Source of the DNA: Maridesulfovibrio sp.
GTDB lineage: Bacteria > Desulfobacterota > Desulfovibrionia > Desulfovibrionales > Desulfovibrionaceae
NCBI RefSeq assembly: GCF_963676065.1
Contig: NZ_OY780933.1
Location: forward strand, 1,476,001-1,540,000
Length of the DNA stretch: 64,000 bases
Reading direction: 5' to 3'
The notes under the pieces are model-generated. The model was not told the origin of the DNA, did no database searches, and saw only the letters and a list, made by a program, of their open reading frames with translations. Made by a program: the position numbers and the translations under genes. Each line of letters opens with the position of its first letter. The first letter of the stretch is position 1. Shown in pieces: positions 6,659 to 56,656 of the stretch.

Positions 6659-7960
6659 ATGGAACCGATTACTGTTGGAATTCTGGGCATCCTCTGCCTG
6701 TTACTGGTTATTCTCGTGTTGCGTTTACCTGTTGGCTTTGCCATGGGAATTATCGGGTTTGTCGGCTTTGCGAAAGTGCTGAACCTGAAAGCCGCTTACG
6801 GGATGCTGGGTACCGAAATATGGAATGTTTTTTCCTCTTACGGATTGACTGTCATTCCTTTGTTCATCCTCATGGGCCAGATATGTTTCTATTCCGGGGT
6901 TAATGAGCGATTGTACAAGTCCGCATACGCATGGATGGGCCATATACGCGGTGGTATTGCCATGGCAACGGTTTTGGCCTGCGCTGGCTTTGCTGCAATT
7001 TGCGGCTCCAATACAGCCACGGCTGCGACCATGTCCACAGTGGCCCTGCCGGAGATGAAAAAATTCAACTACAATCCTGTTCTCTCCACCGGTTCTGTCG
7101 CCGCTGGAGCAACACTCGGTGTGGTTATTCCACCCAGTGTGGTACTGATCATTATCGGTCTGCAGACCGGGGAATCCATCAGTCGGCTGTTTATGGGCAG
7201 CGTCATTCCCGGAATCCTGCTCTGCCTGCTTTTTCTGCTTACGGTCTATTTGATGTGTGTTGCCCATCCTGATTGGGGTCCGGCCGGTCCGAAAGCTACA
7301 TTCAAGGAAAAACTGGCTTCTCTGCCCGGTTCCATTGAGATGATCATTCTTTTTATATTGGTTATGGGCGGACTTTTTGTCGGCTGGTTCACTCCTACAG
7401 AGGCCGGTGCCGCCGGTTCTGCCTTTGCGCTTTTGATTAGTATGGTTTCCCGGGAGATGACCTTTAAGCGATTTGCCGCTGCCGTAAGCGATACCTTGAA
7501 GGTCTCCTGCATGATCATGGTTGTCATGCTCGGTGCGGTTATTTTCGGGCGTTTCCTCGCCGTGACCCGTATTCCGTTCGAGGCGGCTAGTTTTGTGGCC
7601 GGACTGCCTATCCCCCCCACAGTGATTATCCTGCTTATCTGCATAATCTATGCGATCGGCGGAATGGTCATGGACGCTCTGGCTCTGCTGCTTATTACCA
7701 TCCCGATCTTTTTCCCCATTGTCAGCGCCATGGGTTACGATCCGGTCTGGTTTGGCGTTCTGATCACTATTGTAACGACTCTGGGGGCTATCACACCTCC
7801 GGTAGGCGTGACGACATTCATCGTTGCTTCCATGGCCGAGGATGTCTCAATCGACCGTGTTTTTCTGGGCGTCAGCTATTTCATGATTGCCTATGTGGTT
7901 TTGGTTGGGATCATGCTCGCTTTTCCTGCAACAGTGACTTTTATGCCCGGTTTATTATAA
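6659..7960 (+). CDS. dctM: TRAP transporter large permease subunit DctM
   Basis: A 433-residue, highly hydrophobic permease with about 12 membrane segments. Family hallmarks include GFAAICGSNTATAATMSTVALPEM near 120, GATLGVVIPPSVVLIIIG near 150, GWFTPTEAGAAG near 243 and the near-C-terminal GAITPPVGVTTFIVAS. Length and motifs are normal for DctM. It is the last gene of the dctPQM operon. An inverted repeat follows at 8009-8035, but it is not a classic terminator. Confidence 0.92.
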   Translation: MEPITVGILGILCLLLVILVLRLPVGFAMGIIGFVGFAKVLNLKAAYGMLGTEIWNVFSSYGLTVIPLFILMGQICFYSGVNERLYKSAYAWMGHIRGGIAMATVLACAGFAAICGSNTATAATMSTVALPEMKKFNYNPVLSTGSVAAGATLGVVIPPSVVLIIIGLQTGESISRLFMGSVIPGILLCLLFLLTVYLMCVAHPDWGPAGPKATFKEKLASLPGSIEMIILFILVMGGLFVGWFTPTEAGAAGSAFALLISMVSREMTFKRFAAAVSDTLKVSCMIMVVMLGAVIFGRFLAVTRIPFEAASFVAGLPIPPTVIILLICIIYAIGGMVMDALALLLITIPIFFPIVSAMGYDPVWFGVLITIVTTLGAITPPVGVTTFIVASMAEDVSIDRVFLGVSYFMIAYVVLVGIMLAFPATVTFMPGLL

Positions 7961-8000
7961 TTTAGGATTACACATCGGTGAAGCCGGATTTAAAAGGTTT

Positions 8001-8046
8001 TGGGATTCTTAACCCTTTTTTTTAAAAGGGGTTAAGCCGTCGGAGG
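8001..8046 (+). repeat. intergenic inverted-repeat element, copy A
   Basis: TTAACCC plus T-run pairs with an A-run plus GGGTTAA (8009-8035), followed by GCCGTCGG. A related element sits at 31075-31115 with the same order: GATTnTTAA, CCCTTTT, AAGGG, TTAA, GCC, TCGG. The two copies suggest a dispersed intergenic hairpin family in this genome. Confidence 0.4.
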
Positions 8047-8053
8047 CAAAAAA

Positions 8054-8920
8054 ATGGCTGCTGAATTTGTAGAAGTAACCAAAGCCGAAGCAGGGCAGAA
8101 GCTGGTCCGCTTTCTGGAGCGAAGGGTGGACAGTGCTGTTCCTCGTTCGGCCATTATGCGCTGGATTCGCAAAGGTAATGTGCGGGTCGATAAAGGGCGT
8201 TGCAAGCCTTTCGATCTGGTAAAAGAAGGTCAGACGGTGCGTATCCCGCCGTATCAGGCGGAGGAAACGAAGGGGAAGAAGCTGCCCGCATTACCGATAA
8301 TTTATGAGGACGATGATTATCTGGCTGTCTGCAAGCCTGCCGGGTTGCCTACACAAGGTGGAACAGGGCATGAGGATTCCGTCGCGGACCGTCTTCTTTC
8401 CATGTTTGCTGATGCTCCCTACAAACCCGCTCCGGCGCATAGATTGGATCGCGATACGTCCGGAGTAATCCTTGCGGGTAAATCTCATAAGGGGCAGAAA
8501 AATCTGTCTGTCTTTTTTGCTGAACACGGCGAAGGTGGAAAATATTATCTTGCGGAGGTTGATGGATGCTGGCCTCATGATGACTGGACCGAGTTGCGGG
8601 ATATGATGGAAAAGCGCGGTCCCAAGGGACGCGAAAAGGTTGTGGTTGGTTCAGGTAAAGAGGCCGTAAGCTCTGTTTGTACTGTAAAAAAAGGCGAAAA
8701 GGCATCGCTGCTTATCGTAAAGCTTCATACCGGACGTACCCACCAGATAAGGGTACAGCTTTCCTCGCGCGGATTTCCCATTATCGGAGATTCCAAATAT
8801 GGCGGTAAAAATGGATCAATGAAATTACACTGCCTGCGTATAGAAACCCCTTGGTTTACTGCCTTCTGTTCACCTGATTGGGATAGTCTGCCTGAAATTT
8901 CCGAATGTTATTTTCTTTAA
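8054..8920 (+). CDS. RluA-family pseudouridine synthase with S4 domain
   Basis: A 288-residue RNA pseudouridine synthase. Residues 1-75 form an S4 RNA-binding domain (VDSAVPRSAIMRWIRKGNVRVD). The catalytic domain carries the family motif HRLDRDTSGV with the nucleophilic Asp, plus VCKPAGLPTQGG and LHTGRTHQIRVQLS. RluC/RluD-type length and domain order suggest a 23S rRNA uridine substrate, but the exact positions cannot be assigned. The start has GGAGG 7 bases upstream. Confidence 0.88.
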   Translation: MAAEFVEVTKAEAGQKLVRFLERRVDSAVPRSAIMRWIRKGNVRVDKGRCKPFDLVKEGQTVRIPPYQAEETKGKKLPALPIIYEDDDYLAVCKPAGLPTQGGTGHEDSVADRLLSMFADAPYKPAPAHRLDRDTSGVILAGKSHKGQKNLSVFFAEHGEGGKYYLAEVDGCWPHDDWTELRDMMEKRGPKGREKVVVGSGKEAVSSVCTVKKGEKASLLIVKLHTGRTHQIRVQLSSRGFPIIGDSKYGGKNGSMKLHCLRIETPWFTAFCSPDWDSLPEISECYFL

Positions 8921-8958
8921 ACTCAATTTAATTTTCTGGATACCAGAGTTCTAAAAAT

Positions 8959-8993
8959 AAGACAGTTGTACTTGTTTCAGCTGTCTTTTTTTT
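8959..8993 (+). terminator. intrinsic terminator after the pseudouridine synthase gene
   Basis: A nine-bp stem AGACAGTTG / CAGCTGTCT (one wobble) is followed by eight T, 39 bases after the stop codon. Confidence 0.8.
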
Positions 8994-9037
8994 GGCGTTT
9001 TGATAAAAGGAAGTTTATGTTTCACGGTATCAAGTTA

Positions 9038-9065
9038 TTGACAAACGATAACTACTTTATGTAAT
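9038..9065 (+). promoter_or_regulatory. sigma-70 promoter of the DUF2975/HTH pair
   Basis: A perfect TTGACA (9038-9043) is spaced 16 bases from TGTAAT (9060-9065, 5 of 6 consensus). It lies about 45 bases upstream of the start codon at 9109. Confidence 0.6.
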
Positions 9066-9108
9066 ACGGTAAGTGGGTGAGGGGAAAACTACTAAAAAGG
9101 AGGCACTG

Positions 9109-53349: not shown

Positions 53350-53432
53350 AGCCCTACATTATATAAGGAAACTACGCAGAACTAATTTTTAAGTGATATT
53401 TTTTTTAGTTTTCTTTAATGGTATTAGATTTA

Positions 53433-53470
53433 AGCTCGTCCTTTTTAAGGTCGGGCTTTTTTTTTGACTA
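53433..53470 (+). terminator. intrinsic terminator after thyX
   Basis: AGCTCGTCC pairs with GGTCGGGCT (one mismatch, one wobble) around a TTTTTAA loop, followed by nine T. Confidence 0.7.
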
Positions 53471-53477
53471 GTATTAG

Positions 53478-53507
53478 CCTGAAATAGGCTGAAATAGGCT
53501 GAAACAG
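53478..53507 (+). repeat. three 10-bp tandem repeats (iteron-like)
   Basis: CCTGAAATAG, GCTGAAATAG and GCTGAAACAG follow each other without gaps. A 10-bp period places the repeated face on the same side of the helix, as expected for cooperative protein binding. Confidence 0.6.
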
Positions 53508-53735
53508 AAAATTAGCCCTCAATTAGGGCCTGTTGTATGAATCCTGACATATATATGAAGCTATATCGATGCTTTTTCGGTTTTACGGGGTGCCCAGCGG
53601 CTAGTTTCAGTTTCCATAAAAGGTGTTTTTTTCTTTTTACGGTATTGTTGTTTTGATGTTATATATAGTTATATTAGTTGTAATTTTACTTTTTGATGCT
53701 CAGAATGAAACTATTGATTGATTATTCGATCAACA

Positions 53736-53765
53736 ACAGCAGGTAATGGGCATTACCCTGTTGGT
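53736..53765. repeat. imperfect palindrome in the dnaA upstream region
   Basis: AACAG-CA-GGTAAT and ATTACCCTGTT pair around GGGC. Stem of about 11 bp with a two-base bulge; it could form a hairpin or bind a dimeric protein. Confidence 0.45.
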
Positions 53766-54102
53766 AATTGCGATAGCTGTGAACCCTTTGTTTCTGGGTG
53801 ATGAAGAGTGTCAAGAATTAATATATACAATTAAAACAAGTGCTTAAATATTGTTCTAAAGTTGAGTGTGGCTCAGCCCTTTGTATTACTGGTTTTTCAG
53901 AGTATGTTGCCAAAAAAATGATTTGATAAAAAAAAGATGTTTTTTGAGTTATTTCTAAAAAAATATAATAAAACAATATGTTGTGCGCAAAATTTTGTAA
54001 AAATTAATGAAAGTAACTAATAAAAATAATGATCAGGATAAAAACTACAAATGAGAGAAATAGAGTAATTTTATGAAAAACGAAGATTATATAAAAATTG
54101 CC

Positions 54103-54122
54103 TGTGGAAAAAGTTTTCCACA
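54103..54122. promoter_or_regulatory. inverted pair of DnaA-box-like sites
   Basis: TTTTCCACA occurs on the minus strand (54103-54111) and again on the plus strand (54114-54122), separated by AG. It fits the relaxed DnaA box TTWTNCACA. It lies about 210 bases upstream of dnaA, beside the AT-rich segment. Confidence 0.55.
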
Positions 54123-54332
54123 CCTGTTTATAAAAAATTATTAAAAACTGCTTAAGCTTGATTTTACGGTGTCCAGCTCGGTTTTTGCCTTCTGAACCAT
54201 GTTTGCACGCATAACATGAAAGTGCTTAATAAACAGTATGTTAGGCTGTAGAAAACAAATGGGGAAACATTGCGTGCCCGTAGCTTTATCAAGAGTTGAT
54301 CGACTTACTTAATCTGACTTAGTTAACTCCAC

Positions 54333-55694
54333 ATGATGAGAGACAGCTGGAATAAAATTTTAAAATTTCTTGAGAAGGGTCTGAACCCCGGTCTGTACAA
54401 AGTATGGATCAAACCCCTCAAAGCCGAGGTCAGCGCAAATACAATTAAATTGTATGCGCCAAATGACTTTGTGGCAGCCTGGGTCAGGGATCGTCTCATG
54501 GACAACATTAAAGAAGCAGGCGAGCAGGTTCTCGGTACCAGCCCCAAGGTGGAGATTGGGGTTAGAAAAACCGTGAGAAAGCCCGCTGCAACGGCTACCA
54601 TAGCCAAGCCTGCTGTAGCACGTCCGGTTCAGACAAGCATGGGACTGCCCATGATGTCTTCAGCCGTGGTTAATACTCGTATTCCCCGTTGGCGCTTTTC
54701 TTTTGATGATTTCGTAATCGGTGAGTCCAACAGACTCGCTTGTGCTGCGTCCAGAAGTCTCTGTGACAACTCCCTGCCCGGTGATCAGCTTTTCCTTAGC
54801 TCCTCACCCGGTCTCGGAAAAACCCATCTGCTGCATTCGATAGGCAAAAATCTTTGTGCTTCAAGCAACAAGAAGCATATATCCATTGCCTGTCTTACAG
54901 CGGAAGAGTTTGCCAACAGAATGGTTCTGGCGCTGAAAGCGGGAGAGATTTCCCGTTTTAAATCCGAGTTCAGGGACAATGTGGATTGTCTGCTGCTTGA
55001 AGATATTCACTTCTTTCAGGGTAAGCAGAAAATGCAGGATGAAATTCTGGAAACACTGAAGAGTCTGCAACTGCGTGGCTCCAAGGTTGTTATGACCAGC
55101 TCTTTCCTGCCCCGCGAGTTGGAAAAAATTGATCAGCAGTTGGTTTCCCGTTTTAGTTCGGGACTGCTGGCCCTTATTTCCACCCCGGATTTCGAGACCA
55201 GAAAACGAATCGTTGAAAGCAAGGCCATACGCTTGGGAACTCAGGTTCCGGATTCCATATCAGAGCTTCTTGCGGATCGTATTACCACTGATGTCAGACA
55301 GCTGGAAAGCTGCCTGCAGAACCTAGTGCTCAAGGCAAGACTTTTAAACCGTGACGTTTCACAGGAACTGGCATGGCAGGTGTTGGAGAATTATTCCATC
55401 GCCAAAGCCGCGCCCAACTATGATTCCATTGTGGATCATATTTGCCGTTCCTACGAACTCACACCTGAACAGTTGCGTTCAAAAAGCCGTAAAAGGCAGA
55501 TCGTGCTGGCCAGAAATACCGCTTTCTTCCTCGCCCGCAAACATACCGAACTGTCCCTCAAGGATATCGGTACCAGACTGGGCCGCAGACATTCCACAGT
55601 AATCAAAGGCATTACCAATATAGAACGTGAAATTTCCCTGCAGACACCTCTCGGGAGGCAGTTACAGGATACAATTGAACGCCTTACACCTTAA
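54333..55694 (+). CDS. dnaA: chromosomal replication initiator DnaA with divergent DNA-binding signature
   Basis: A 453-residue DnaA. Domain I (1-75) begins DSWNKILKFLEKGLNPGLYKVWI; domain II (about 80-120) is short and Ala/Pro-rich. The AAA+ domain has FDDFVIGESN, Walker A SPGLGKTHLL (about 158-166), Walker B LLLEDIHFFQGK (Glu replaces the first Asp) and LVSRFSSGL with the Arg finger. Domain IV ends in IGTRLGRRHSTVIKGI (417-423); the usual GGRDHSTV is one residue shorter and lacks the Asp that reads the DnaA box. There is no clear ribosome-binding site. It is not followed by dnaN, so it may be a second dnaA copy. Confidence 0.88.
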   Translation: MMRDSWNKILKFLEKGLNPGLYKVWIKPLKAEVSANTIKLYAPNDFVAAWVRDRLMDNIKEAGEQVLGTSPKVEIGVRKTVRKPAATATIAKPAVARPVQTSMGLPMMSSAVVNTRIPRWRFSFDDFVIGESNRLACAASRSLCDNSLPGDQLFLSSSPGLGKTHLLHSIGKNLCASSNKKHISIACLTAEEFANRMVLALKAGEISRFKSEFRDNVDCLLLEDIHFFQGKQKMQDEILETLKSLQLRGSKVVMTSSFLPRELEKIDQQLVSRFSSGLLALISTPDFETRKRIVESKAIRLGTQVPDSISELLADRITTDVRQLESCLQNLVLKARLLNRDVSQELAWQVLENYSIAKAAPNYDSIVDHICRSYELTPEQLRSKSRKRQIVLARNTAFFLARKHTELSLKDIGTRLGRRHSTVIKGITNIEREISLQTPLGRQLQDTIERLTP

Positions 55695-55724
55695 ACGGTT
55701 TTTTCGGGCAACTGGATTAATTTA

Positions 55725-55747
55725 TACCCCTTAGAGGGTGTTTTTTC
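55725..55747 (+). terminator. probable terminator after dnaA
   Basis: ACCC-CTTAGA-GGGT hairpin followed by GTTTTTT, 31 bases after the dnaA stop. The stem is short. Confidence 0.5.
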
Positions 55748-55903
55748 TGTTGTTCGTCATGGTTTTGTTTTTTCTCCCGAGAAGAGTGACAGCCTTTGGC
55801 TGTTTGCTCTTTTTCGGGTTTGGGGATACTCATAGCAACCGGTTTGTATCTGTCTTTGAGCGGCCCGTTGGCCAATCAAGGGCTTAATCACAGAGGTTAG
55901 GAA

Positions 55904-56596
55904 ATGAACTCCAATGTTTGGAACTCCATAAAGAAGAAGCTTCTTGTACGCATTAATCCCGTGCTGGTCAGGGTTTGGGTGGAACCTCTGTCAGCACGTT
56001 ACGAAGATGGTATTGTACAGCTTACCGCTCCTAACGAGTTCGTTATGAAGTGGGTGCAGGATCATCTGCTTGATCGCATAAAAGATGCGGCTCAGGAAGT
56101 TCTGGAAGCAAAGGTCGGGGTTACCATTGATTTGGAAAGCGGCAAAGCGGACAGTCCTCGGGAATTTATCTCCGATGTGACTGCTTATTACGCCGTGGAT
56201 GAAATCCTTGACAGCATTAACAGGCTTACATCCATAGTACGCAGTTCCTATCCTGTTGATTGCGGAGCTGAGGACTCTCCGTCCGAAGCTGAAGAATTCG
56301 CCGCTGAACTTGAAGTTCAGACCTTTGATTCTATTCTTGATGCTGTGCTGGAATCTTTTGGCGTAGCCTTTCGTGAGCTGATGATGCAGGAAAATGAGCA
56401 TGCTGTGCTGGCCCGTAGGGCCCTGTATTATCTTTGTTTCCGTTATGGTATTCCCGCAGAGGAAGTGGCTTTGAACATTGACTGCACAGTTTCCGAAGTC
56501 CGTGAAGGCGCAAAAGTGCTGGAGAACGAAATTTCGGAAGCTATTGATAATGGCGAAGATCTCGATGAACTCCTCCTGAGGATCTTCCAAAAATAA
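55904..56596 (+). CDS. DnaA-related protein lacking the AAA+ domain
   Basis: A 230-residue protein with AGGTTAGGAA before its ATG. Residues 1-80 closely match DnaA domain I and the upstream DnaA (NVWNSIKKKLLVRINPVLVRVW; LTAPNEFVMKWVQDHLLDRI). Residues 145-220 follow the DnaA domain IV layout: FDSILDAVLESFGVAFREL, then HAVLARRALYYLCFRYGIPA and IDCTVSEVREGAKVLENEIS, but the DnaA-box signature is lost. The whole ATPase core between is missing and replaced by a short acidic linker. It sits 209 bases downstream of dnaA. It cannot bind or hydrolyse ATP like DnaA; it may modulate initiation through domain I contacts. No described family fits that I know. Confidence 0.7.
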   Translation: MNSNVWNSIKKKLLVRINPVLVRVWVEPLSARYEDGIVQLTAPNEFVMKWVQDHLLDRIKDAAQEVLEAKVGVTIDLESGKADSPREFISDVTAYYAVDEILDSINRLTSIVRSSYPVDCGAEDSPSEAEEFAAELEVQTFDSILDAVLESFGVAFRELMMQENEHAVLARRALYYLCFRYGIPAEEVALNIDCTVSEVREGAKVLENEISEAIDNGEDLDELLLRIFQK

Positions 56597-56618: not shown

Positions 56619-56650
56619 AAACGGCAGCCGCAAGGACTGCCGTTTTTTTT
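56619..56650. terminator. intrinsic terminator between the DnaA-like gene and phoH
   Basis: AACGGCAG / CTGCCGTT stem with a CCGCAAGGA loop and a T10 tail, following the DnaA-like gene; the minus side has A-rich flank only 3 bases away. Confidence 0.85.
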
Positions 56651-56656
56651 TGCTTT

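Follow-up and report, generated by a model that had tools for sequence, protein, structure and literature searches.

Among described proteins, those closest to the one reported here are DnaA itself (TIGR00362) and Hda/HdaA (TIGR03420). Hda is a DnaA paralogue that keeps the AAA+ domain, lacks domains I and IV, and acts as a modulator. Proteins that bind domain I of DnaA include DiaA, HobA, SirA, and YfdR, which are not known to be DnaA-derived. According to PMC5448010, these four proteins bind domain I, in which, for E. coli DnaA, W6 marks the dimer face and W25, F46, and W50 form the face contacted by DiaA. The same source places DnaB (contacted through E21 and F46) on the face opposite to that used for W6 pairing, so that one domain I molecule can do both. 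Domain-losing DnaA paralogues and domain I binders are thus already known.

We analyzed a 64,000-nucleotide stretch of a Maridesulfovibrio sp. genome (the window), in which a short gene encodes the mirror image of Hda: a 230-residue protein with DnaA domains I and IV but without AAA+ domain, which we name mini-DnaA. A first-pass annotation had already proposed that domain I is combined with a degenerate domain IV in the absence of the ATPase core, in contrast to Hda. This architecture stands in the light of Pfam searches, profiles, and structure matches, and of the outcomes named there as refuting it (a predicted structure unlike domain IV with no DnaA domain I match, or a lack of syntenic orthologues in related genomes), neither occurred. 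Mini-DnaA is a cut-down copy of a DnaA, and since both ends are kept, the motor is lost, and the DNA-reading end has become acidic, its probable role is to regulate a DnaA and not to start replication. While DiaA, HobA, SirA, and YfdR bind domain I, mini-DnaA itself is a domain I, and it would involve the same surface (PMC5448010). Of a DnaA made of domains I and IV without domain III we saw no description in the open-licence PMC literature that we searched.

The locus and its two DnaA paralogues

The features of the locus, in window coordinates, are as follows.

54103..54122, no strand: inverted DnaA box pair TTTTCCACA, ~220 bp 5' of dnaA2 (sequence scan)
54333..55694, + strand: dnaA2, an orphan paralogue of 453 aa whose Walker A motif is intact, located directly 5' of the short gene in 17/17 genus genomes (ORF, Pfam, synteny)
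55724..55741, + strand: terminator-like hairpin and T run in the gap that separates dnaA2 from the short gene (consensus scan only)
55904..56596, + strand: mini-DnaA, ATG start, 230 aa; domain I, linker, pseudo-domain IV, no AAA+ (ORF, Pfam, 17/17 genus genomes, dN/dS)
55904..56131, + strand: domain I, residues 1-76 (DnaA_N match, alignment column counts, functional positions from PMC5448010)
56132..56323, + strand: variable linker, residues 77-140, unlike any part of DnaA2 (hhalign, dN/dS)
56324..56593, + strand: putative pseudo-domain IV, residues 141-230, net charge -8 to -13 in 17 orthologues (profile search, shuffles, predicted fold, structure matches, charge)
56384..56404, + strand: basic-loop site of domain IV, where SKSRKRQI of DnaA2 becomes MQENE-HA, one residue fewer (alignment, column counts)
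56480..56512, + strand: box-reading helix site, where GRRHSTVIKGI of DnaA2 (GGKDHSTV in DnaA1) becomes DCTVSEVREGA, with C194 invariant (alignment, column counts)
56621..56651, + strand: terminator-like hairpin and T run just 3' of the short gene (by eye; its 9-base loop exceeds the limit of the scan)

The neighbor of the short gene had been taken for a DnaA, which is correct insofar as it is a DnaA paralogue, but it is not the DnaA at the skew origin. That place belongs to a second gene, dnaA1, at ~872-873 kb in the same genome (positions 7773-9077 of stretch L052), which is followed by frames that we read as dnaN, gyrB, and gyrA. GC skew sampled at 20 places changes sign twice, becoming positive within the interval 864-1055 kb and negative again within 2974-3165 kb. 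In 5-kb steps, the first flip falls at ~869-879 kb, at dnaA1. The window's dnaA2 lies ~0.66 Mb from this flip, in a positive-skew stretch. Since the neighbor is an orphan DnaA2 and not the skew-origin DnaA, the direct target of mini-DnaA may be a process of DnaA2.

Two DnaA proteins are frequent in this order. Bac_DnaA at E <= 1e-15, a strict limit at which diverged copies may be missed, gave two matches in 70, one match in 29, and none in 2 of 101 genomes, and two matches in 37/41 genomes of the window's family. Of the two paralogues encoded in the window's genome, DnaA1 is the stronger in its domain IV match (3.7e-28 vs. 2.5e-22 for DnaA2), and DnaA2 in its matches for domain I (2.0e-14 vs. 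4.3e-5 for DnaA1) and AAA+ (3.0e-40 vs. 2.5e-27). The box-reading motif differs as well, with GGKDHSTV kept in DnaA1 and RRHSTV, RKHSTV, or RTHSTV present in all 37 DnaA2 inspected (17 from the genus and 20 from sister genera). In an alignment that includes 26 of these, the DnaA2 motif is one residue shorter than that of DnaA1. Neither the presence of two DnaAs in Desulfovibrionales nor this division of features is described in the accessible open-licence PMC literature searched. The window's genome also encodes DciA. Its search with the Hda model gave nothing above the cut-off, which says little about the absence of an Hda-type protein because Caulobacter, used as a control, fails this cut-off too (passed by 1/14 control genomes) and because there is a third match of 40 bits, in a 438-aa frame at 3,012,880.

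The AT-rich gap of ~980 bp before dnaA2 (53350-54332) holds the inverted TTTTCCACA pair, and TTTTCCACA starts 199-230 bp before the first dnaA2 start codon in 14 of the 17 genus genomes. A TTWTNCACA box is found within 250 bp of dnaA2 at 18/20 sister loci, the background for DnaA boxes being 42 in 400 kb. These boxes may represent an autoregulatory or origin-like element. Nine terminator-like sites were detected in the region scanned against 3.8 expected. The terminator-like hairpins suggest that the short gene may be expressed independently of dnaA2 in this genome, where the two genes possibly form separate transcripts; in four genomes the gap between them is only 109-117 bp. Upstream of the short gene, at ~55822-55842, we noticed a block resembling GGGGATAYTCATWGCAACCGG, similar in many of the 17 genomes, which occurs in the window's genome once without mismatch and once with three mismatches, with no shared regulon seen there. 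All Rfam matches in the locus were below gathering scores and were taken as chance.

Domain make-up of mini-DnaA

The N terminus of mini-DnaA repeats domain I of the neighboring DnaA2, as had been claimed. Pfam DnaA_N matched residues 4-65 with E=1.3e-15 (57.3 bits, cut-off 24.6), and BLASTP aligned residues 1-75 to DnaA2 with 43% identity (E=2e-17). A domain I profile gave E values of 9e-20 to 7e-17 for 17 DnaA2 vs. 0.013 for DnaA1, so by sequence domain I of mini-DnaA is canonical and of the DnaA2 kind. Among the functional positions, column counts show W6, W25, F46, and W50 to be invariant in 17/17 orthologues and N44 to be present in 16/17. Position 10, Leu in E. coli DnaA, is Lys in all 17 mini-DnaA, while it is Leu in the six genus DnaA2 compared and in 11/20 sister DnaA2. 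K10 in place of a dimer-face Leu may weaken domain I pairing or, more speculatively, alter it in favor of a heteromer. Position 21, Glu in E. coli, is Leu both in mini-DnaA and DnaA2.

No trace of the ATPase core was found, in keeping with the first-pass annotation. Pfam and NCBIfam searches up to E=10 returned neither AAA+ nor Hda models, and no part of the linker matched DnaA2 (hhalign probability 0.1). The NCBIfam DnaA equivalog model TIGR00362 scored 34.2 bits, far below its cut-off of 343.9. Mini-DnaA therefore resembles DnaA_N-only proteins in having domain I without AAA+, and it has a domain IV-like part in addition. The DnaA_N-containing hypothetical protein PRK06672 (NF005206) has a DnaA_N-like stretch in a protein not called DnaA and matches 16/17 orthologues at E <= 0.001, but in the window's mini-DnaA this match is limited to residues 4-94, aligned with positions 193-284 of 341, and scores 25.6 bits for a cut-off of 416. 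When the family alignment was used for a PDB profile search, three DnaA entries were recovered via domain I (best E 7.7e-7), and the C-terminal part matched nothing. A full-length structure prediction made from two sequences had a pLDDT of 45 and was left out of the analysis.

Sequence evidence for domain IV from the single protein is weak. Pfam Bac_DnaA_C matched residues 142-181 with E=0.05 and 14.1 bits, under its cut-off of 31.5, and BLASTP aligned 100 C-terminal residues to DnaA2 with 22% identity (E=1e-4). The residue pairs on which the original claim was based (FDSILDAV/YDSIVDHI and VLARRALYYL/VLARNTAFFL) do align, and the likeness to domain IV holds, but it extends over ~90 residues (141-230) and not 75. 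The family as a whole is more informative. Searched against 1138 ORFs from 18 genome stretches, the C-terminal profile recovered 17 mini-DnaA followed by 17 DnaA2 (E 8.8e-7 to 1e-3), with nothing else better than E 0.7. Using hhalign, it aligned to DnaA2 domain IV over 90 columns with 23% identity and a probability of 79-92%. When scored against domain IV sequences, 25 of 26 DnaA2 exceeded the best shuffle (9.4 bits; 4943/5400 shuffles received a reported score), the two sequences below it being one DnaA2 (L069, 8.9 bits) and the sole DnaA1 tested, that of this genome (3.7 bits).

The predicted structure points in the same direction. Residues 136-230 predicted alone, from an alignment of only two similar sequences, had a mean pLDDT of 86.4. 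In Foldseek, DnaA domain IV came first (3pvp with E 6.7e-3 and TM 0.73, then 8btg, 1j1v, 2hcb, and 3r8f), with zero matches at E <= 0.001. Among the entries listed by VIA-align, the best six were all DnaA, with Z scores of 11.2 (3pvp), 11.1 (8btg), 11.1 (1j1v), 9.6 (3r8f), 9.3 (1l8q), and 8.9 (2hcb) over 84-88 residues, the first non-DnaA entry being ParB with Z 6.4; helical folds may attain such scores by chance, but the six best all belong to the expected family. The C-terminal part of mini-DnaA thus has, in its predicted model, the fold of DnaA domain IV.

What this putative domain has lost is the DNA-reading surface. The box signature is replaced in 17/17 orthologues, which bears out the loss noted in the first-pass annotation, and the replacements in the DNA-contact regions are conserved and non-basic. 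Compared with the net charge of -8 to -13 in pseudo-domain IV, domain IV carries +7 to +8 in six genus DnaA2, +3 to +10 in 20 sister DnaA2, and +7 in DnaA1; for the whole protein, the pI is 4.4 in mini-DnaA vs. 9.7 in DnaA2. Invariant acidic positions include D193, E209, and D221. Mini-DnaA is therefore like DnaA, and especially DnaA2, in its domain I, the predicted fold of its domain IV, and a one-residue gap in the helix-turn-helix, while it differs in lacking AAA+, in having lost the basic loop and recognition helix, and in a net negative domain IV. We also observed that C178 and C194 are invariant across the 17 orthologues. The C194 site is Arg in 26/26 DnaA2, while that of C178 is Cys also in DnaA1 and in 2/26 DnaA2 (both from sister genera). 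A redox or metal role may be considered for these two residues.

Distribution, selection, and descent

Mini-DnaA was found in 17/17 genomes examined of the genus, one carrier being Desulfovibrio sp. UBA2564, and in each of them the gene lies directly downstream of dnaA2 on the same strand, with a gap of 109-348 bp. Syntenic orthologues beside dnaA, which the first-pass annotation had proposed to look for in Desulfovibrionales, thus exist but are confined, among the genomes searched, to a single genus of sulphate-reducing bacteria. Among the matches listed for 297 genomes of the order, those spanning mini-DnaA came from 17 genomes, all of the window's genus, and the others matched the N-terminal part, mostly in frames as long as a DnaA. 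Searches with the C-terminal profile gave a similar picture. In the family (247 genomes), they recovered the 17 mini-DnaA and five weak matches, all five in DnaA-length frames (477-502 aa). In the phylum (297 genomes), they recovered the window's own protein and, weakly, two frames with lengths of 492 and 189 aa. No mini-DnaA gene was seen at 20 sister-genus dnaA2 loci (0/20) within the stretches examined. The sole short DnaA_N frame listed outside the genus in 120 genomes of the order has 62 aa, and three frames below 330 aa were among those listed outside the genus in 198 genomes of the phylum. Two of these were rejected, as they are dnaA genes that change reading frame internally beside a dnaN-like frame, and the third sits near a contig end. 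The two split genes (L108 584-1971 and L110 1142-2447, from two other genomes of the phylum) likely owe their resemblance to a domain I-only protein to a shift of frame introduced in sequencing or assembly. A phage or plasmid origin of mini-DnaA was rejected, since phage, plasmid, and viral contig collections contained no relative and PHROG families gave no match up to E=0.1.

The selection analysis, in which dN/dS was computed for 12 of 136 possible ortholog pairs, gave 0-0.09 for domain I (12 pairs) and 0-0.10 for the C-terminal domain (10 pairs, dS being saturated in the other two), compared with 0.12-1.14 for the linker (12 pairs), 0.06-0.16 for the whole protein, and 0-0.065 for DnaA2. 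This pattern, low in the domains and higher in the linker, indicates two constrained domains joined via a loose linker. Loss of the central domain and of the box signature is what a decaying pseudogene, or an assembly artefact, might look like, yet that reading, whose probability we consider negligible, is refuted by presence in 17/17 genomes of one clade and by dN/dS values of at most 0.10 in both domains for the pairs measured, with invariant residues in each. Synteny in 17/17 genomes together with purifying selection on both domains shows that mini-DnaA is a real gene.

Sequence comparisons indicate that mini-DnaA derives from the DnaA2 type, and the window's dnaA2 likely represents this source type. 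In the alignment, the helix-turn-helix of mini-DnaA has the same one-residue gap that DnaA2 shows relative to DnaA1. Descent from DnaA1 was rejected because it scores only 3.7 bits with the C-terminal profile, a value reached by 37 of 4943 scored shuffles, because it is absent from the best 45 of 46 matches of that profile, and because its domain I match is far weaker (E 0.013). In trees of 17 mini-DnaA, DnaA2 from 6 of the 17 genus genomes, and 20 sister DnaA2, the mini-DnaA family forms one side of a branch with support 100/100 and a length of 3.3 changes per column. Free trees place the family apart from the genus's own DnaA2, but the AU test does not reject a clade uniting the two (p 0.20 for domain I and 0.40 for domain IV); the branch is too long to tell a duplication of the genus's own DnaA2 from an earlier one. 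Domain I of mini-DnaA also gives higher scores with DnaA from other genera (up to 72.4 bits) than with the DnaA2 beside it (53.6 bits), which makes the source copy less than certain. Only three positions distinguish genus DnaA2 from the 20 sister DnaA2 by the filter used, so that DnaA2 bears no strong mark of adaptation to a new partner.

Possible roles of mini-DnaA

Our preferred reading, in which we place roughly even confidence, is that mini-DnaA is a DnaA2-type paralogue without motor and DNA-reading surface that was retained as a regulatory subunit acting via domain I, with a net effect that is likely negative. Its domain I would enter the contacts made by domain I of DnaA2, whether these involve DnaA, the DnaB helicase, or some other domain I partner, while the acidic pseudo-domain IV would be unable to hold DnaA boxes. 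A DnaA that has lost its motor and its grip on DNA but keeps the faces of domain I could act on complexes by capping or diluting them or could retain the helicase, and the negative effect would arise by diluting, capping, or competing with complexes of DnaA2 (perhaps also DnaA1) or by occupying a partner. Modulation of DnaA2-type complexes through domain I is the most likely role as judged from the protein's conserved features, from which we infer binding to DnaA2 or its partners, lack of box binding, and an inhibitory effect. The first-pass annotation had suggested an initiation modulator working through domain I or by partner occupation. That suggestion is partly supported, since the partner face of domain I is kept, the DNA-contact residues are replaced, and the charge is inverted. 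Points against our preferred reading are the uncertain expression link to dnaA2, K10, the small number (three) of genus-specific DnaA2 positions, and the domain I scores.

The charge inversion could have a more active meaning. Tentatively, and with clearly less confidence, we consider mini-DnaA as a DnaA-derived anti-initiator, an orphan-DnaA duplicate that lost its motor and whose domain IV would now offer an acidic surface that resembles DNA or binds DnaA, placing DnaA2 under the control of its own charge-inverted copy. Docking of the acidic pseudo-domain IV on the basic face of domain IV of DnaA2 (or DnaA1) in place of DNA, with domain I as an anchor, is in our estimate unlikely. A helix-turn-helix fold is not typical of DNA mimics and overall acidity alone is no proof of mimicry, even if the inversion affects 17/17 orthologues, with the fold apparently kept in the model and with acidic residues that never vary, among them D193, E209, and D221. 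Proteins that mimic DNA and target DNA-binding proteins have been described (PMC5722371). An effect of opposite sign, for which the analogy with DiaA and HobA speaks since both stimulate DnaA assembly through the same face (PMC5448010), is rather improbable: mini-DnaA would bridge domain I partners, e.g., bring DnaB or DciA to DnaA2, and aid loading or assembly. The partner face needed for this (W25, N44, F46, and W50) is kept and DciA is encoded in the genome, but the domain IV-like part provides no known adaptor function and no full-length mini-DnaA was found in the other genera searched. We give still less credence to a role away from initiation, such as a redox- or salt-responsive regulator reusing DnaA domains. 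It would account for the two invariant cysteines, C194 replacing a universal Arg of the 26 DnaA2, and for the long branch of 3.3 changes per column, but C178 is not new, being found in DnaA1 and two DnaA2, and the strict synteny with dnaA2 and the conserved partner face of domain I argue against it.

If the preferred reading of mini-DnaA as a regulatory subunit acting through domain I is true, it would be a replication regulator assembled from the two ends of DnaA itself, in a lineage with many genomes that encode two DnaAs with divided features. Were it an anti-initiator, it would mirror Hda, being a modulator composed of domains I and IV of DnaA. Mini-DnaA makes testable what the role of the second DnaA of Desulfovibrionales is and whether a free domain I suffices to control initiation.
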